The translations under genes and the position numbers were made by a program. A stretch of DNA of 6,840 nt, from the NCBI GenBank assembly GCA_023132135.1, contig JAGLYR010000312.1, forward strand, positions 1-6,840. Reading direction: 5' to 3'. The notes under the pieces were generated by a model. It saw only the letters and a list, made by a program, of their open reading frames with translations. It was not told the origin of the DNA and did not search any database. This DNA is from Candidatus Eiseniibacteriota bacterium (GTDB lineage Bacteria; Arandabacterota; Arandabacteria; JAGLYR01). The first letter of the stretch is position 1. Each line of letters opens with the position of its first letter. This document shows positions 1-6,840 of the stretch, piece by piece.

Positions 1-536
1 TCGGATGACGTGTCGTCGCAGTTGGCGATGATCTCGCCGGTGGAGCAGTTGAACATCCACCCGGTCGTGGTGCTCGCCGCGTCGGGAGAGAGCACACCGG
101 TCGATGCGACAACCTTCACGCTATCGGAAATCACGGTGCCGGATGCATCGGACTCGACACACGGGTTGCCCGGGATTCCGTGTTTCAGATAGGGGCCGTA
201 CGGGTAGTTAGGCCGGTCCAGCGTAGCGGAGATTTTGCCCGTGGCGTCGGAATACTGTGTGATCTGCGCCAGGAAGCTCGCGTAACGATCGCTCGGCGCG
301 CCGGAACCGTCGGTGTGGTCGATGTTGCCCGGGTAATTGTTGCTGTGCTGATGGTAGTAGAGTTCCGCGGCGTTCCTCAGGGCGGCGAGATCGGCCCTCA
401 GAGTGGACTCCTTGGTGTCCCGGACCGAGTCGGTGAACTGCGGGATGGCCACCACCGCAACGATCCCGATCACGATCACCACGAGCAGGAGCTCGATGAG
501 CGTAAACCCGGCCACACCCTTTTTGCTCTTGAACAT
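1..536 (-). CDS. Type IV prepilin / T2SS pseudopilin, partial (3' end beyond window)
   Basis: This is a major-pilin or pseudopilin subunit, made as an inner-membrane precursor, trimmed by a prepilin peptidase and assembled into a fibre. Seen: ATG at 536-534 with an AGGAGG Shine-Dalgarno 8 nt upstream. A 10-residue basic leader (MFKSKKGVAG) is followed by the class III signal FTLIELLLVV, with cleavage expected between G10 and F11 and the conserved +5 Glu at E15. One hydrophobic helix runs to about residue 32 and ends in IPQF. An amphipathic stretch (about 36-62) and a polar globular domain follow. The visible C-terminus contains GWMFNCSTGEIIANC, resembling the final strand region of GspG/PilA-like subunits. 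Cysteines C126, C164 and C173 could form a disulfide. 178 codons are visible with no stop, so the gene leaves the window, probably close to its end. It lies 129 nt downstream of the platform gene, behind a hairpin. Major pilin and GspG-like pseudopilin cannot be told apart here. Confidence 0.93.
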   Translation of the reverse strand, partial: MFKSKKGVAGFTLIELLLVVIVIGIVAVVAIPQFTDSVRDTKESTLRADLAALRNAAELYYHQHSNNYPGNIDHTDGSGAPSDRYASFLAQITQYSDATGKISATLDRPNYPYGPYLKHGIPGNPCVESDASGTVISDSVKVVASTGVLSPDAASTTTGWMFNCSTGEIIANCDDTSS

Positions 537-568
537 TCGTCGTCCCTCCTCAGCTCTATTGCTCGGCC

Positions 569-592
569 GCGGGGTCTACCCGATAGCCCCGC
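569..592 (-). promoter_or_regulatory. GC-rich hairpin in the pilC-pilin gap
   Basis: In the minus-strand transcript, GCGGGG and CCCCGC pair perfectly. Inside them CTA pairs with TAG, leaving one unpaired A and a 5-nt loop. The hairpin sits about 19 nt upstream of the pilin Shine-Dalgarno, in the only long gap within the cluster. No U-run follows, so it is not a standard intrinsic terminator. It could be a processing or stability element that protects a separate, more abundant pilin mRNA. The structure is seen; the role is inferred. Confidence 0.45.
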
Positions 593-665
593 CGGTTCTT
601 CGAGTTATTCTCTGACAGTCTGATCGGATGGACTTCGGACGATCTTTAGCGCGTTTCTTACAGGG

Positions 666-1889
666 CTAATGCATGACGCTTGACATCTTGAAAACGGGTA
701 GCAGGAGGGAGATCACCACGAATCCCACAATGCCGCCGACCACGAAGATCATGGTGGGCTCGAGGATCGTGGTGAGATCTTTCGCTTGGGCTTTGGAGCG
801 GGCGTCGTAGAAGTCGGCGATCTTGATCATCGTGATGGCGAGGGCCCCGGTGGACTCTCCCGTCTGGAGCATCTGCTGGACGGTGGGTGGGACCAGGCCG
901 GATTCGCCGATGGGGCCCGAGAGTGTCTTGCCGGAGATGATGCTGCCCTCCACACGCTCGATCATGTCGCGGAAGAGAACGTTGCCCAGGATAGGTTTGC
1001 TCACCTGGAGAGCCTCCAGGAGGGGCACTCCAGCGTCGAGCATTTCCCCGACGGATCTCATGAGCCGGGCCACGACCACGTTGCGGATGAAAGATCCAAC
1101 CACGGGAATGGAGAGGATCCAGCGGTCCAGGAAGCGGCGGCCCGGGGTCGAACTGAAGAGGACGATCAGGCCCGCGGCCGTGGCCACAACGGCCGGCAGG
1201 ACGAACATCCAGTTGTACTTCAGGAAATCCACGCTGCCCAGAAGGACCCGGGTGGGGAGAGGTAGTACGGCTTCCATGTCCTCGAAGATGCTGATGAATC
1301 TCGGCAGGATGAAGGCCATCATGAAACCCACCACGAGAACACAGAAGAGCGCCAGGACCAGCGGGTACGTGAAGGCGGAACGAACCGTGGAACGGAGCTC
1401 TGCCTGCTTGCCCAGAATCGTGGACATCCGATCCAGCATCTGGTCCAGAAACCCGCCGCTCTCTCCGATGGCCATCATGCTCACGATCGTCTCGGGAAAC
1501 ACATCCAGGTGCCGGCCCATGGCGGTGGAAAGCATTTGCCCGCTCTTGATATCGGCGATCACCTCGCCCAGCGCGCGGCGCAGGCGGGAATGGGTGGTCT
1601 GGGCTTCCAGGGCTTCCAGGGAACTGATCAGAGCCGTCCCGGTTGCGGTCATGATGCTGAGCTGTGAGGTGAACAGGATGAGCTCCTTGGGCGGGAGCGG
1701 TCGTTGCAGCAGTCTCGTACACCGGTTGACCAGGATCTCAATCTTCGCGATCCACGGACGGAGGTTCCACTGGCCGGGGCTCTCGTCCTGAGCGGGAGCG
1801 GATCTCGTGGGGGTGGGCGGATAGGGCCGCGGGCTGGCCTTTTCTTCCGATCCCGCTTCGGGTTTCTGTGACGTCAGTACGTAGGCCAT
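666..1889 (-). CDS. gspF/pilC: Type II secretion / type IV pilus inner-membrane platform protein (GspF/PilC family)
   Basis: This polytopic inner-membrane protein is the platform on which the cytoplasmic ATPase acts to move pilin subunits into the fibre. It has 407 residues, the usual family length. Two T2SSF repeats are visible: the first about 70-193, with GESGGFLDQM at 142-151, and the second about 273-395, with the matching GESTGAL at 344-350. Hydrophobic segments lie at about 177-197, 227-246 and 379-399, the usual three-helix layout. Residues 1-66 are Pro/Ser/Glu-rich and do not look like the usual family N-terminus, so that part seems lineage-specific. The ATG at 1889-1887 has GGAG 7 nt upstream. 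The stop is TAG. Only 20 nt separate it from the ATPase gene upstream, so the two are almost certainly co-transcribed. The family is clear; choosing between secretion and pilus function would need more of the locus. Confidence 0.95.
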   Translation of the reverse strand: MAYVLTSQKPEAGSEEKASPRPYPPTPTRSAPAQDESPGQWNLRPWIAKIEILVNRCTRLLQRPLPPKELILFTSQLSIMTATGTALISSLEALEAQTTHSRLRRALGEVIADIKSGQMLSTAMGRHLDVFPETIVSMMAIGESGGFLDQMLDRMSTILGKQAELRSTVRSAFTYPLVLALFCVLVVGFMMAFILPRFISIFEDMEAVLPLPTRVLLGSVDFLKYNWMFVLPAVVATAAGLIVLFSSTPGRRFLDRWILSIPVVGSFIRNVVVARLMRSVGEMLDAGVPLLEALQVSKPILGNVLFRDMIERVEGSIISGKTLSGPIGESGLVPPTVQQMLQTGESTGALAITMIKIADFYDARSKAQAKDLTTILEPTMIFVVGGIVGFVVISLLLPVFKMSSVMH

Positions 1890-1909
1890 CTCGTCACTCC
1901 GCTTCCAGG

Positions 1910-3610
1910 CTATTCAGTGGCAATCGCCCTTGTCACTTCTTCGATAGTCGTCAGGCCCTTCTTCACCTTCTCCAACCCATCCTCATAGAGGGATGGGAAC
2001 GGGCTGCTGTTCCTCCCCTGGCGCATTTCGTCGGTTGACGCTCGTTTGAGAACCAGGTTGCGCATGGGTTCGTCCACCAGCAGGATCTCATGAATGCCCA
2101 TCCGGCCCTTGAACCCGGTGTCGAAGCAGTGCTCGCAGCCGCGGCCCTTGGCCAGGCGGGTCGACTTGCCGTCGCCCAGTCCCAGGATCTTCCGCAGTTC
2201 CGGGGACGGGAAATACGTGGTCTGGCACTCAGGGCAGATGGTCCGAATCAATCGCTGGGCCAGCACGCCCCGGACCGCCGAGGAAACCAGGTACGGTTCG
2301 ATCCCCATGTCCAGCAGACGCGTCATTGCGCCGGCGCTGTCGTTGGTGTGAAGGGTGCTGAGGACCAGGTGGCCGGTCAGGGCGGCCTGGATGGCCGTCT
2401 CGGCGGTTTCCCGGTCCCGGATTTCGCCCACCATCACGATGTCGGGGTCCTGACGAAGTACCGACCGCAGCACCCTGGAGAACGTGAGTCCGATCTTGTC
2501 GTTCACCTGGATCTGGTTCACGATGCTCATCCGGTATTCAACGGGATCCTCGATCGTGATCAGGTTCTTCTCGATAGTGTTGATGAGACTGACAGCGGCG
2601 TAGAGTGTGGTGGTTTTGCCGCTTCCGGTGGGACCTGTTGCGAGAATCAGCCCGTTGGGCTGTCTCAGGATGGATTTGAAAGCGGGGAGGACAGCGGAAT
2701 GGAATCCCAGCTTGTCCAGATCCAGAAGGACCGCCCGCTTGTCCAGGACGCGAAGCACGACCTTTTCCCCCAGGACCGTCGGCATGGAGGAGAATCGCAG
2801 ATCGACGTCGTGCCCCTCGGCCGTGACCCGGATCCGGCCTTCCTGCGGGAGTCGTCGTTCGGCGATGTCCAGATTGGCCATGATCTTGAGACGCGAGGTC
2901 ACGGCCGGGTGGAGGTCGAGCCGCTGCGCCATCACCTCGTGCATCACGCCGTCCACCCGGTACCGGACACGCAACCTGTCCTCGTCGGGTTCAATGTGGA
3001 TGTCGCTGGCGCCGTCCTTGATAGCGTTGAGGACGATGAGGTTCACCAGGTTGATGACGGGGGATTCGCCCGCCATCTCGCTGATCTCCTCGATATTCTC
3101 GATCTGCCCTTCCTCGACCAGGGTGACGTCGCTGCTCTCGAGGCTGGAGAGGAATGCGTCGATTTCCATCTTTTTTCCGTAGTACTCCTCGATGGAAGTT
3201 TCGATTTCCTCGGCGCGGCACAGAACGGGCTGGATCTTGAGTCCCGTCATCTTCTGGAGATCGTCCAGGACAAAGACGGATTGGGGATTCGAGGTGGCTA
3301 GAGTCAGGATGTTGTGAACGCAGAACATCGGCATCACTTGGTAGAACTCGGCCTGCTGCTGGGGGATGACATCGATGATTTTCGGATCCACCAGGCCCTT
3401 CCGCAACCAGACGTGAGGGATTTCCATCTGCTGGCTGAGGGCTGCCACCGTGTCTTCGGGCGTGATGATCTTGAGGTCGAGCAGGATTTCTCCCACCTTC
3501 TTGCCGGAGATCTTCTGCTCTTCCAGGGCCTGTTCCAGCTGCTCCCGGGTCAGCTTGCCCATGGCAATCAGGATCTCGCCGATGGGAGCTCTCTTTGTAG
3601 CGGTCCTCAC
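1910..3610 (-). CDS. gspE/pilB: Type II secretion / type IV pilus assembly ATPase (GspE/PilB family)
   Basis: This hexameric cytoplasmic ATPase powers fibre assembly through the GspF/PilC platform. Numbered from the preferred GTG (566 residues), an MshEN/GspE N-terminal domain occupies about 1-145, with two degenerate c-di-GMP-type motifs at 9-32 and 38-61. The ATPase core has Walker A GPTGSGKTT (326-334, Lys332), the Asp box ITIEDPVEY (351-359), Walker B IVMVGEIRD with Glu396, and the His box GHLVLSTLHTN (413-423). A full tetracysteine zinc site follows (CPEC 459-462, CEHC 492-495), typical of GspE/PilB and absent from PilT. The C-terminus ends in the familiar EDGLEKVKKGLTTIEEV. All catalytic motifs are intact. 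Start: a GTG at 3625 is possible, but GAGG lies only 1 nt before it. The GTG at 3610 has AGGAG 6 nt upstream and overlaps the STAS stop as GTGA, so it is preferred. The next gene encodes the platform protein, 20 nt downstream. Confidence 0.96.
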   Translation of the reverse strand: MRTATKRAPIGEILIAMGKLTREQLEQALEEQKISGKKVGEILLDLKIITPEDTVAALSQQMEIPHVWLRKGLVDPKIIDVIPQQQAEFYQVMPMFCVHNILTLATSNPQSVFVLDDLQKMTGLKIQPVLCRAEEIETSIEEYYGKKMEIDAFLSSLESSDVTLVEEGQIENIEEISEMAGESPVINLVNLIVLNAIKDGASDIHIEPDEDRLRVRYRVDGVMHEVMAQRLDLHPAVTSRLKIMANLDIAERRLPQEGRIRVTAEGHDVDLRFSSMPTVLGEKVVLRVLDKRAVLLDLDKLGFHSAVLPAFKSILRQPNGLILATGPTGSGKTTTLYAAVSLINTIEKNLITIEDPVEYRMSIVNQIQVNDKIGLTFSRVLRSVLRQDPDIVMVGEIRDRETAETAIQAALTGHLVLSTLHTNDSAGAMTRLLDMGIEPYLVSSAVRGVLAQRLIRTICPECQTTYFPSPELRKILGLGDGKSTRLAKGRGCEHCFDTGFKGRMGIHEILLVDEPMRNLVLKRASTDEMRQGRNSSPFPSLYEDGLEKVKKGLTTIEEVTRAIATE

Positions 3611-3621
3611 AGGAAACTCCT
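3607..3621 (-). promoter_or_regulatory. Ribosome binding site and GTGA overlap fixing the ATPase start
   Basis: On the minus strand, AGGAG (3621-3617) and a 6-nt spacer precede GTG (3610-3608). The last two bases of this GTG open the TGA stop of the STAS gene (3609-3607). The Shine-Dalgarno lies inside the last STAS codons. This arrangement favours termination-reinitiation coupling and argues against the in-frame GTG 15 nt upstream. Confidence 0.75.
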
Positions 3622-3945
3622 GCACGCCTCGTCGACAGTGGGATGGATGAGGACTAGCTTGTCCAGGCGCGTGGCCGTTATGATATCCCGGCAGAGGGTG
3701 TTGGGCGACGCAAGGCAGAAGGTCCCACCCTGGTCCTCGGCCAGTGCGTGGAGATCCAGGAGTGTTTCCAGCCCCGGGCTGTCGATGTAGGGGACCCCGC
3801 CCATATCCACCACCAGGCGCAGGTTTCCTCCGGCCAGCAGCTCGTCGGCTGTTTCCCTGAGAGAGAGGGCGATTTCCTCCATCAGGGGATCATCGACGGC
3901 TATTATGCTGACGGCGCCGCGCTTGAATGACCGAAGTTTCTTCAC
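3607..3945 (-). CDS. Single-domain STAS protein (anti-sigma factor antagonist-like)
   Basis: A cytoplasmic protein of 112 residues, nearly all one STAS domain (about 10-105). Seen: the strand-loop-helix signature LVVDMGGVPYIDSPGLETLL (44-63). It includes Asp55-Ser56 at the position that is reversibly phosphorylated in SpoIIAA/RsbV-type antagonists. A second strand (GTFCLASP) and a C-terminal helix (TVDEACRSFL) follow. Known: such proteins bind an anti-sigma kinase or other switch partner in their unphosphorylated form. No RsbW-like kinase or PP2C phosphatase gene is in the window, so the partner is unknown. The start is GTG at 3945-3943 with no clear Shine-Dalgarno, and it overlaps the kinase stop as GTGA, so translation probably depends on the upstream gene. 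Its own stop overlaps the ATPase start the same way. Position suggests it links the kinase to the ATPase, but that is inference; it may act on a sigma-factor pathway elsewhere. Confidence 0.88.
   Translation of the reverse strand: MKKLRSFKRGAVSIIAVDDPLMEEIALSLRETADELLAGGNLRLVVDMGGVPYIDSPGLETLLDLHALAEDQGGTFCLASPNTLCRDIITATRLDKLVLIHPTVDEACRSFL
3942..3945 (-). promoter_or_regulatory. GTGA stop/start overlap joining kinase and STAS genes
   Basis: The kinase ends CAG-TGA (stop 3944-3942) and the STAS gene starts with GTG at 3945-3943. Immediately upstream there is only a remote GAG and no convincing Shine-Dalgarno. Reinitiation by ribosomes finishing the kinase is therefore the likely way the STAS protein is made. 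Confidence 0.65.
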
Positions 3946-5801
3946 TGTTCAGCGCCGATCTCGACGGCAGCCTGTTTGGCGGCGGTTACGGGAAGGGTCA
4001 GGCAGAACTCCGCCCCCTCACCGGGTGTGGAAGTCACGGTGATCTCCCCTCCATGGATGAAGGCGATTTGCTGGGCCAGCGCCAGGCCAAGCCCGCTTCC
4101 CGGGCGCTGCCGGATGTCCTCGTTCGAAGAGCGATAGAACTTATCGAAAATGTGAAGAAGATCCTCTTCCTTGATCCCCGGGCCGGTGTCTCTCACCCGA
4201 ATGAAGAAGGATGATCCCTCGGCCTTGGCCGAGACATCCACCGTTCCACCCGAAGGGGTGTACTTCAAGGCATTGCCGACGAGATTGACCAGGGCTACGG
4301 AAATCAGGCTTTTGTCGAGCTGCATGGGCGGAGCGGGATCCGGCACGTCCACATGAAAGGCCAGCCCCCCGGCTACTGCCTGTGCTTTGAGCCCCCCGGC
4401 TATTTCGGAAATGAGTTTGTTTATCTTCACCGGGACCCGATTGGCCATGAGACTGCCGGCCTCCATCTTGGAGATGTTGAGAAGGTTCCCGATGAGGCCG
4501 GTTAACCGTTCGGTTTCCTGCGCAATGGTGTTGTAGAATTCCAACCGGGTGCTCTCGTCGTCCACTTGGTCGTCCACCAGCATCTCGGTGTAGGCGCGGA
4601 TGGAGGCCAGTGGTGTCCGGAACTCGTGGGCCACGTGGTTCACGAACTCGTGGGTCATGCGATCGGCCATCTTCTGCTGAGTGATTTCCCGGAGCGTGAC
4701 AAGGGAACCCACCGGCCCGGCCCCCGGTGTGGAGAGATCCGTGATGGAGATCTTCACGACGCGCTCGGCAGACCCGCCGAGTGAGAGCTCCAGAGTTCTG
4801 ATGACCCGGTTATCCTCCAGCGTTTCGTCCAGTTCCTCCTGCCCCAGAGCAGCGCCGAGGGTCTGGCCCAGCAGCTGGCTGTCGGTCTTGAGGAGAAGGT
4901 TCTGCGCTGCCCGGTTGGCCATCGCGATCCTGCCGGAAGAATTGGTCACAAGGACTCCGGTGGGGAGAAAACCGATGATGGCCTCGACCCGGCTCTTCTC
5001 GTATTCCAGTACGTGTTTCTCGATTTCCAGCTGGGAGTTGGCCTGATCCACTCCGTCGATTTTCTCGTGGAACACACGAACGGCGTCGTTCCAGGCATCG
5101 GTCAGCTCCCGAAGCTGGCCGCGGCCCCCGCAGTGGATCCCGCGGACGGATTTGTCGTGGATCTGCCGCTTCAGTTCCCGGATCAGCTTCGGAAGCGGGC
5201 GGAGAACGAGGCGCAGGTAGGCATAGGTTGCACCGACCATGAGGAAGGCGACAAAGGCGACCACGCCGATGAACCGGCTGAACTGTTGCGGCTCGAAGAC
5301 AGGACCCGTTCGCGTGACCGCCACCTGTGCGGTTCCAATCTGGCGCCCTTCGAAGACAACGGGCGCCGAGATCGATACTATTTCCTGGTCGTCGCTCTGA
5401 ATCATGCGCGCTTGCGATCGGGAACCGTGGGAAATCGGTGAGTAGACCGGGACCTTGTCGCTGAAGTCCGCTCGATTCGCCTCCGTCAGGATTGTCCCGG
5501 CGGAGTTGGATACGGCTGCATACAGCAATCCCTGCCGGGCGGCCAGATTACGGACCAGGGCTTCCAGGGTTTCCCGGTCATGATTGCTGAGCGGAACAGC
5601 GGCGGCGGTGGCCAGCACGCCGCAGATCTGCTTTCCGTATGCCCGCGTGGAGCGGATTTCGCTCTGTTTCTGCGCCCCGAGCGAGAAGATTGCCATCAGA
5701 CCAACCAGGACAGCACAGATTCCCAGCAGGACCAGGCCAAGTTGTCCGACCAGTCCTTCCTTCTCAATTCTCGGCTTGGCGAACTTCAAGAACGGTTTCA
5801 T
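3942..5801 (-). CDS. Membrane sensor histidine kinase (periplasmic sensor-HAMP-PAS-HisKA-HATPase_c)
   Basis: An inner-membrane two-component kinase of 619 residues from the preferred ATG at 5801. Domains in order: cytoplasmic N-tail; TM1 about 17-42; an extracytoplasmic sensor region of about 135 residues; TM2 about 177-198; a HAMP-like linker (about 199-252); coiled coil; PAS (about 267-376); HisKA with the H box HVAHEFRTPL (phospho-acceptor His392). The HATPase_c domain has N box NLVGNALKYTP (Asn510), G1 DTGPGIKEED (538-547), F box FDKFYR and G2 GSGLGLAL (568-575). All kinase motifs are intact. No response regulator gene is next to it. Instead its stop overlaps the STAS start, and the pilus-type ATPase follows. 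Start: an in-frame ATG at 5888 would add 29 Arg-rich residues (648 in all). Neither start has a good ribosome site. The extra stretch overlaps hairpin-forming repeats and looks non-coding, so 5801 is preferred with moderate confidence. The signal sensed cannot be told. Confidence 0.93.
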   Translation of the reverse strand: MKPFLKFAKPRIEKEGLVGQLGLVLLGICAVLVGLMAIFSLGAQKQSEIRSTRAYGKQICGVLATAAAVPLSNHDRETLEALVRNLAARQGLLYAAVSNSAGTILTEANRADFSDKVPVYSPISHGSRSQARMIQSDDQEIVSISAPVVFEGRQIGTAQVAVTRTGPVFEPQQFSRFIGVVAFVAFLMVGATYAYLRLVLRPLPKLIRELKRQIHDKSVRGIHCGGRGQLRELTDAWNDAVRVFHEKIDGVDQANSQLEIEKHVLEYEKSRVEAIIGFLPTGVLVTNSSGRIAMANRAAQNLLLKTDSQLLGQTLGAALGQEELDETLEDNRVIRTLELSLGGSAERVVKISITDLSTPGAGPVGSLVTLREITQQKMADRMTHEFVNHVAHEFRTPLASIRAYTEMLVDDQVDDESTRLEFYNTIAQETERLTGLIGNLLNISKMEAGSLMANRVPVKINKLISEIAGGLKAQAVAGGLAFHVDVPDPAPPMQLDKSLISVALVNLVGNALKYTPSGGTVDVSAKAEGSSFFIRVRDTGPGIKEEDLLHIFDKFYRSSNEDIRQRPGSGLGLALAQQIAFIHGGEITVTSTPGEGAEFCLTLPVTAAKQAAVEIGAEQ

Positions 5802-5816
5802 GGTATTGCGTCTGCC

Positions 5817-5857
5817 TGCGCGTTGCGCGTACGGGTTTGCTACCCGCCCCAGAGGGC
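5817..5857. repeat. Tandem heptamer and two small hairpins upstream of the kinase gene
   Basis: TGCGCGT occurs twice in tandem (5817-5830). CGGGT-TTGCT-ACCCG (5832-5846) and GCCC-CAGA-GGGC (5846-5857) form abutting hairpins. The block lies just before the preferred kinase start. It may be a dispersed non-coding repeat or an mRNA leader structure. If the longer kinase start at 5888 is used, it would instead code for an Arg-rich tail. Confidence 0.35.
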
Positions 5858-5939
5858 GAGCAGGCCGTCGCAGGATGCTCGGCGTCATACGGTTATCGGC
5901 ATTCCCGGGGGAATCTAAACCAAGAAACGGAAGAGCGGA

Positions 5940-6560
5940 TTACAGAAAGGCTAGCATTTCCTCGCAGGTCACAATGTAGGCGAAGCCGTAGGCCAGGTTC
6001 TTGAGGGTAGCCAGGTGATATTCCTCCGTGCAGGTGGCCGTGCCGTCCAGGAGGAAATAGACGCGGAAACCTCGCATGAAGGCGTCACGCGCAGTGGTCT
6101 CACAGCAGAGGTTCGTCATCACGCCGCTGATCACCAGATTCTTAACCCTTTGCTTCCGGAGCTCCTCCTCGAGGGGGGTGGCCAGGAATGCGCTGTAGCG
6201 GCACTTCTCGATGAGGAGTTCCCGCTTGCGGGGCCGGAGCTCGGGGACAAGCTCCGCGTCCTCCTGGCCGTCGATCAGGAGACTGTCCCACCACTGCGCC
6301 ATCATTCCTGCATCCGCCGCCGGATCCACGTGCCGGTGCCGGGTGAAGATGATGGGGTAGTCAAGGGTGCGGAAATGCTTCAGGACCGACAGGATGTTGG
6401 GGAGAACGGGGTTCAGCATCTCGTGAAAGTGAACCTGCGCGTCGATAACGAGGAGAGCCGTTCGATCCGGATCCGGTTTCGGGACGGGTCTCGTGAGGTG
6501 CGGCGCGAGTACCTCCCGCCAGCGAGCGGCTCTGGAATCGATCGTGTTCCTGCCGGACAC
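5940..6560 (-). CDS. Isochorismatase-family cysteine hydrolase
   Basis: A soluble hydrolase of 206 residues with the Rossmann-like fold shared by isochorismatases, nicotinamidases and N-carbamoylsarcosine amidases. The predicted catalytic triad is Asp40 in LLVIDAQVHF, Lys119 in LIEKCRYSAF and Cys152 in SGVMTNLCCETTARDAF, where Cys153 also follows. The strand order and the end (VYFLLDGTATCTEEYHLATL) fit the family. The substrate cannot be assigned: the family covers vinyl ether, amide and ureido substrates, and no biosynthetic neighbours are visible. The start is GTG at 6560-6558 with GGAGG 5 nt upstream; the stop is TAA. It is on the same strand as the pilus cluster, 138 nt before the preferred kinase start, and no clear terminator lies between. 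Read-through is possible, but a functional link to the pilus genes is not shown. It may be an independent gene that simply lies upstream. Confidence 0.93.
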   Translation of the reverse strand: MSGRNTIDSRAARWREVLAPHLTRPVPKPDPDRTALLVIDAQVHFHEMLNPVLPNILSVLKHFRTLDYPIIFTRHRHVDPAADAGMMAQWWDSLLIDGQEDAELVPELRPRKRELLIEKCRYSAFLATPLEEELRKQRVKNLVISGVMTNLCCETTARDAFMRGFRVYFLLDGTATCTEEYHLATLKNLAYGFAYIVTCEEMLAFL

Positions 6561-6720
6561 GGGCGCCTCCGCGCAAGTCGAATCAGGTGGTCAGGGATAT
6601 ACCTCAGATGACACACTGCCGGGGGAACGTCAAGCGATAATCTAGCCTGGGTTATTCATGAATCCCTGCTGCGAGCATCTCAGGATGTGCCTGGACTGCG
6701 TTGCGGCGGCGAAGCCAATC

Positions 6721-6746
6721 GTCATCCCCGCGAAAGCGGGGATCCA
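6721..6746 (+). repeat. REP-like hairpin repeat, copy A
   Basis: A 26-nt element with an 8-bp perfect stem (ATCCCCGC/GCGGGGAT, 6724-6743) closed by a GAAA tetraloop, flanked by GTC and CCA. This general pattern of short GC-rich hairpin is a familiar dispersed intergenic repeat in many Gram-negative genomes. It pairs with copy B in inverted orientation 34 nt away. Confidence 0.8.
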
Positions 6747-6780
6747 TCTTGACCTTGCAGGGACAGCGTGCATATGAAAA

Positions 6781-6806
6781 TGGGTCCCCGCGTTCGCGGG
6801 GACGAC
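6781..6806 (-). repeat. REP-like hairpin repeat, copy B (inverted)
   Basis: Read on the minus strand, this 26-nt element matches copy A at 23 of 26 positions. Its 8-bp stem (GTCCCCGC/GCGGGGAC, 6784-6803) stays perfect because two of the three differences are partners in one base pair. Together with copy A (6721-6806) it forms a BIME-like inverted doublet upstream of the hydrolase gene. Between 6561 and 6720 no gene or convincing promoter was seen. Confidence 0.8.
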
Positions 6807-6840
6807 GGGCAAGAGTGCTCCGCGGGGACGCTCTCGCTAC

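Follow-up and report, generated by a model that had tools for sequence, protein, structure and literature searches.

A STAS gene overlapping a PilB-type ATPase gene in a conserved pilus-assembly operon of a Candidatus Eiseniibacteriota bacterium

Pilus extension is known to be controlled by cyclic di-GMP (c-di-GMP), by PilZ and FimX proteins and by chemosensory systems, and MlaB, the STAS component of the MlaFEB complex, is a known case of such a protein binding an ATPase. Control of the assembly ATPase PilB by a sensor kinase and c-di-GMP has already been described in Xanthomonas (PdeK-PdeR and FimX-PilZ-PilB; PMC11656802), and the HmpUVW partner switch of Nostoc punctiforme controls hormogonium development through its STAS output HmpV, the downstream effector of which is undefined (PMC6495340). 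Here we describe a stretch of 6,840 nucleotides from a Candidatus Eiseniibacteriota bacterium (contig C238, positions 1-6840, hereafter the window; the source metagenome-assembled genome (MAG) has 345 contigs and is 96% complete), in which genes for a histidine kinase, a STAS protein and a PilB/GspE-type ATPase follow one another in a pilus or type II secretion system (T2SS)-like operon. Having searched the window PilB against 386 genomes (genomes are given G and loci L handles where one is needed), we find that this operon seems to be a reduced form of a common and apparently undescribed kind of pilus-assembly control. To the fuller reading, that the operon was inherited vertically with a post-translational control module in which STAS is the adaptor of PilB, and that this module was trimmed in the window, we give roughly even credence.

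Conserved gene order and its probable reduction in the window

In order of transcription, the minus strand of the window encodes an isochorismatase-family protein, the histidine kinase, STAS, the PilB/GspE ATPase, PilC/GspF and a GspG/PilA-like prepilin. The features of the operon are as follows.

3942-5801, minus strand: membrane sensor histidine kinase, 619 amino acids (aa) (Pfam, hydropathy, motif positions, orthologues, tree)
3607-3945, minus strand: STAS protein, 112 aa, RsbV/SpoIIAA-like fold, motif DSPGL (Pfam STAS 1e-15, AlphaFold, PDB matches)
1910-3610, minus strand: PilB/GspE-type assembly ATPase, 566 aa, MshEN plus T2SSE (domain searches, tree)
3942-3945, minus strand: kinase/STAS overlap, GTGA shared by the kinase stop and the STAS start (sequence)
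3607-3610, minus strand: STAS/PilB overlap, GTGA shared by the STAS stop and the GTG start of PilB (sequence)
3778-3780, minus strand: codon of Ser56, equivalent of the phosphorylated serine in RsbV/SpoIIAA (alignments, model)
3428-3586, minus strand: tandem MshEN c-di-GMP-binding motif (motif scoring, NCBIfam NF053729)
666-1889, minus strand: PilC/GspF inner-membrane platform protein, T2SSF (Pfam)
3-536, minus strand: GspG/PilA-like N-methylated prepilin, truncated by the contig edge at position 3 (domain searches)

STAS lies beside PilB in 5 of the 29 nearest PilB loci, namely in four orthologues and in genome G279, and in a control run from the STAS side just 2-3 of 84 other STAS genes had PilB nearby, so that chance does not account for the linkage. 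The orthologues (G366, G369, G326 and G272) are 55-59% identical to the window PilB and come from four other families, all remaining matches being at 50% or below. In each of them STAS is directly upstream of PilB and PilC downstream, and the STAS/PilB overlap is the 4-nt ATGA rather than the GTGA of the window. A prepilin of the window type follows PilC in G369, G326 (56% identical to that of the window) and G272, and the contig of G366 ends inside PilC. An overlap of 4 nt is ordinary and in itself proves little, and is possible in 45 of 299 (~15%) close co-directional gene pairs of the fetched loci, where gene starts come from a simple open reading frame (ORF) caller. Its conservation nevertheless exceeds chance, since all four orthologues have an overlapping STAS gene at this position. 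That the sensory genes sit in the operon for expression only, with no mechanistic link to PilB, would fit both the commonness of overlaps and the loss of parts in some members (G369), but it is very improbable given that order and overlap are conserved across four other families and that the STAS-PilB pair recurs in separate PilB groups.

In the PilB tree the window stands next to G369 (support 99/90), the whole group is supported at 100/100 and its union with G279 at 99/94; the window kinase and the operon-linked kinases, including that of G279, likewise form one clade (98/95). Because the two trees give concordant groupings, they indicate that the operon is inherited vertically as a unit. 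The original prediction, made from the letters alone, was thus right to place a sensory module within a pilus/T2SS-like operon, and its gene identities agree with the domains found (sCache_3_2-PAS-HisKA-HATPase_c, STAS, MshEN-T2SSE and T2SSF), as do both GTGA overlaps with the positions listed above.

The relatives differ in what lies between kinase and STAS. In G366, G326 and G272 the kinase is followed by a receiver-only response regulator of 126-144 aa, a protein of 518-525 aa, STAS, PilB and PilC, the third of these six being a GAF-HD-GYP c-di-GMP phosphodiesterase (PF13487, E 3.4e-37 or better, with HD and GYP motifs present); the order in G279 is kinase, regulator, GAF-GGDEF diguanylate cyclase, STAS and PilB. 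G369 keeps STAS-PilB-PilC, with kinase, regulator and HD-GYP all absent from the locus. Full-length HD-GYP orthologues were found only in G366, G326 and G272: the assembly of the source genome gave none, its best match being a generic HD-GYP protein (E 2.2e-66), and no match at E 1e-60 came from G369. Our conclusion is that the window locus has neither regulator nor HD-GYP, and that the assembled genome lacks the HD-GYP orthologue. Loss of both genes in the window lineage is a simpler reading than their gain in the others, because the nearest relative, G369, also lacks them together with the kinase.

It had been proposed that STAS stands in the place of the response regulator, and that this would fail if a regulator regularly followed the kinase in relatives and STAS were a local insertion. 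The first half is what we found, since a regulator comes after the kinase in G279 and in each of the three orthologous operons with a kinase, and the proposal is not supported. The second half we did not find, and a STAS insertion replacing the regulator is ruled out, STAS-PilB being the most conserved pair and regulator and HD-GYP the missing parts. The arrangement in the window is instead best read as a local reduction of the operon, since its genome lacks the HD-GYP orthologue that three relatives carry. A kinase with no adjacent regulator and with STAS directly after it is a correct description within the 6840 bases of the window only, the contig ending inside the pilin gene. Misassembly at the kinase/STAS junction is unlikely, both ORFs being full length against orthologues and their 4-nt overlap clean. 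A scan for sigma-70-type promoters gave no match.

Kinase, STAS protein and ATPase

In the kinase an sCache-like sensor domain (residues 56-162) lies between two predicted membrane helices, and PAS, HisKA and HATPase_c follow; the protein carries the HisKA and ATPase motifs of two-component kinases, with H392 of the H-box in HEFRTPL. A longer ORF begins at 5888, and orthologues favour the start at 5801. Identity to the linked kinases of the relatives' operons is 31-35% (E 1e-83 to 1e-111), whereas no unlinked kinase of the compared set does better than E 4e-52. Its identification as PilS is ruled out by the tree, in which it is far from the PilS-like kinases of the type found in a pilus cluster on contig C223 of the same genome. 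HisKA kinases transfer phosphate to receiver aspartates, for which reason phosphotransfer from kinase to STAS is unlikely. The model implied by the original prediction, in which the kinase phosphorylates STAS directly in place of the lost regulator, draws on the 4-nt overlap of the two genes and on the missing regulator in the window; we find it scarcely credible, as the kinase is of the canonical HisKA type with a linked receiver in its orthologues, and STAS is already present in regulator-bearing operons and so did not arise as a substitute.

The AlphaFold model of STAS (pLDDT 93.7), in which Ser56 opens a helix spanning residues 56-71, matches the anti-sigma antagonists SpoIIAA, RsbV and TM1081 in the PDB, and also 7ch7, which we take to be an example of MlaFEB (MlaB with the ATPase MlaF). 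Fold and phosphorylatable serine (Ser56 in DSPGL) are those of RsbV/SpoIIAA; the score for the anti-sigma antagonist family TIGR00377 of NCBIfam, 49.7 bits, is below the curated cut-off of 53.45. Every PilB-linked STAS protein examined has this serine, mostly as DS, as ES in G326 and as NS in the distant G112. No linked serine kinase (HATPase_c_2) or PP2C/SpoIIE phosphatase was found in the window. Elsewhere the source genome encodes two RsbW-type and five SpoIIE proteins, unlinked to the window STAS, and phosphorylation of STAS in trans by these partner-switch proteins is therefore possible. A scan of contigs with the window STAS gave no match; one with the sister-family STAS matched 'Candidatus Eisenbacteria' and other bacterial MAGs. 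Alternatively, STAS might belong permanently to the PilB complex as a structural or assembly subunit, in the way that MlaB serves MlaF, and its serine would not be a switch. ATPase-binding STAS subunits are known (MlaB in MlaFEB, with 7ch7 among the fold matches) and G369 keeps STAS-PilB-PilC with no linked kinase, but Ser56 is kept throughout, and in one phylum the neighbouring gene encodes a partner-switch-type phosphatase/kinase; we regard this alternative as unlikely.

PilB matches T2SSE at 1.1e-138 and has the expected Walker (GPTGSGKT at 326) and zinc-type CxxC (CPEC at 459, CEHC at 492) motifs. It belongs to a third such system in its genome, falling in the PilB tree outside the types of both the PilB-PilT-PilC cluster with kinase and regulator on C223 and the GspE-GspF-pilin set on C308. 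NF053729 gives 63.8 bits (cut-off 38), and by the published motif definition (PMC5013675) the MshEN pair keeps 18 of 22 key positions, among them both Gln.

Outside these subjects, the isochorismatase-family hydrolase gene (5940-6560, minus strand) lies upstream on the strand of the kinase, 138 nt from the kinase start, was not seen near the kinase in relatives and is probably unrelated. An imperfect inverted repeat near the contig end (6720-6807, 31-nt arms, 87% complementary, GTCATCCCCGCGAAAGCGGGGATCC-like) is a REP/MITE-type element.

STAS-PilB pairs in other lineages and the proposed role of STAS

In sister families of the same class (L083, L084) we found the order PilZ, CheA, MCP, PilB, STAS, NtrC-like regulator, FliA-like sigma factor and receiver-HisKA kinase, with no PilC or pilin genes nearby; this cluster links a chemosensory array to a solitary PilB. 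In eight genomes of another phylum (G130, G413, G414, G417, G418, G267, G399 and G391, with only the end of the SpoIIE gene visible in G417) a GAF-SpoIIE-HATPase_c_2 protein is encoded directly before STAS-PilB-PilC, mostly followed by pseudopilin genes, and further incomplete or interrupted copies occur in G389, G415 and G416. In G112, STAS comes after a distant PilB. The STAS-linked PilBs form at least three well-supported groups in the tree, which does not settle their deep order; that they are one clade is not supported by it, although a single origin is possible. Across lineages the inputs differ and STAS and PilB stay, as G369 has no kinase and SpoIIE/RsbW- or CheA/MCP-based inputs are found elsewhere.

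Two further observations concern these loci. The SpoIIE-type operons (L134, L164-L167, L170, L249 and L250) carry a complete partner-switch cassette ahead of the pilus motor, and in G415 (L168, 5261-9938) three extra genes, some mobile- or AAA-like, lie between STAS and PilB, the SpoIIE-STAS-PilB arrangement being conserved in other respects. Other sensory genes also occur in pilB operons (L323 in G205, L305 in G336, L327 in G373), as kinase-response regulator-prepilin peptidase-like-PilB and as PilB-HD-GYP-PilC.

Of the 22 key MshEN positions, members of the window clade keep 17-20 and the sister families 19, and the motif is degenerate in most SpoIIE-type operons (9-15 of 22, though 17 in G267). 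The c-di-GMP and partner-switch inputs may therefore be alternatives, a correlation seen in few lineages.

STAS could also be an ordinary anti-sigma antagonist that is co-expressed with the pilus genes and acts on an RsbW-type anti-sigma factor elsewhere, giving transcriptional control. Its fold and phosphosite, the RsbW-type and SpoIIE proteins of the genome (two and five) and the FliA-like sigma beside PilB-STAS in the sister families all fit. However, no sigma or anti-sigma gene is present in the window, in G366, G326, G272 or G279, or in the SpoIIE-type operons, and the conserved overlapping partner of STAS is PilB and not a sigma factor, which makes this account improbable.

Under the reading we prefer, the conserved plan would be sensor kinase, receiver-only regulator, c-di-GMP enzyme (HD-GYP or GGDEF), STAS, PilB with MshEN, PilC and pilins, from which the window lineage would have lost regulator and c-di-GMP enzyme, leaving the kinase to abut STAS. 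The module would set pilus assembly post-translationally, the kinase acting via the regulator on the c-di-GMP enzyme, and local c-di-GMP on the MshEN domain of PilB. STAS, made beside PilB and switchable at Ser56, would be the dedicated adaptor of PilB, altering its activity or recruitment. In the window itself the kinase would have to signal via a regulator encoded elsewhere, and any phosphorylation of STAS would have to come from a serine kinase acting in trans. Gene order, co-inheritance, domains and the retained phosphosite and MshEN motif are observed; contact between STAS and PilB, phosphorylation of STAS and the response to c-di-GMP are what we infer here. The earlier suggestion that assembly is controlled rather than transcription is plausible, considering the receiver-only regulator of relatives, the c-di-GMP enzyme encoded next to it and the MshEN motif kept in PilB.

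Several points weigh against this proposal. With the HD-GYP orthologue missing, the c-di-GMP arm may no longer work in the window lineage; the window MshEN pair has Pro for its first Arg and has lost the Gly of the second motif; that of G279 is degenerate (10 of 22, second motif shifted) despite the GGDEF gene there; and the FliA-like sigma and NtrC-like regulator beside STAS in the sister families suit a transcriptional role. A broader generalization, which we put forward only tentatively and hold to be somewhat doubtful, is that STAS may be a dedicated phosphorylation-dependent switch of pilus/T2SS motors in several distant lineages, a partner switch targeting the motor ATPase instead of a sigma factor and fed interchangeably by a kinase with a c-di-GMP enzyme, by a SpoIIE/RsbW fusion or by a CheA/MCP array.

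Comparison with described systems

That STAS-PilB pairs recur while their inputs change suggests a control point on the motor that has gone unrecognised and is directly testable with two soluble proteins. It also offers a specific candidate for the effector, described as undefined, of STAS outputs like HmpV (PMC6495340). No description of a STAS gene tied to pilB was found in the open-licence literature searched, which is weak evidence of absence, and the term STAS does not occur in a 2024 review of PilB cofactors (PMC11656802). Myxococcus xanthus MasABK is ruled out as a STAS precedent, its components being described as a membrane protein, a lipoprotein and a kinase.

As in classical PilS-PilR clusters beside pilB-pilC, a sensor kinase gene lies within the pilus cluster, but the source genome has such a cluster separately on C223, and the tree places the window kinase at a great distance from those PilS-like proteins. 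MlaB-MlaF likewise pairs a STAS protein with an ATPase; MlaF, however, is an ABC transporter ATPase and PilB a hexameric secretion ATPase, the relation being through the STAS fold only. With PdeK-PdeR the operon shares a kinase and regulator tied to c-di-GMP turnover and, as proposed here, post-translational control of PilB, whereas the Xanthomonas regulator itself has an EAL domain and acts via FimX and PilZ (PMC11656802). Here the regulator is receiver-only, the HD-GYP or GGDEF protein is separate, STAS is encoded in the pilB operon and PilB itself has MshEN. MshE and described MshEN-bearing PilB proteins (PMC5013675; PMC11656802) have this N-terminal c-di-GMP-binding domain on the assembly ATPase too, although the motif of the window is slightly degenerate, and a STAS partner gene forms no part of those systems as described. 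In contrast to HmpUVW, STAS is encoded with PilB and no SpoIIE/RsbW genes are linked to it in the window. Finally, RsfSR-RsfB of Mycobacterium smegmatis is also a two-component system feeding a STAS protein, but its regulator carries a PP2C phosphatase and its target is SigF (PMC10950880), whereas the operons of the relatives contain a c-di-GMP enzyme instead and PilB is the target encoded alongside.

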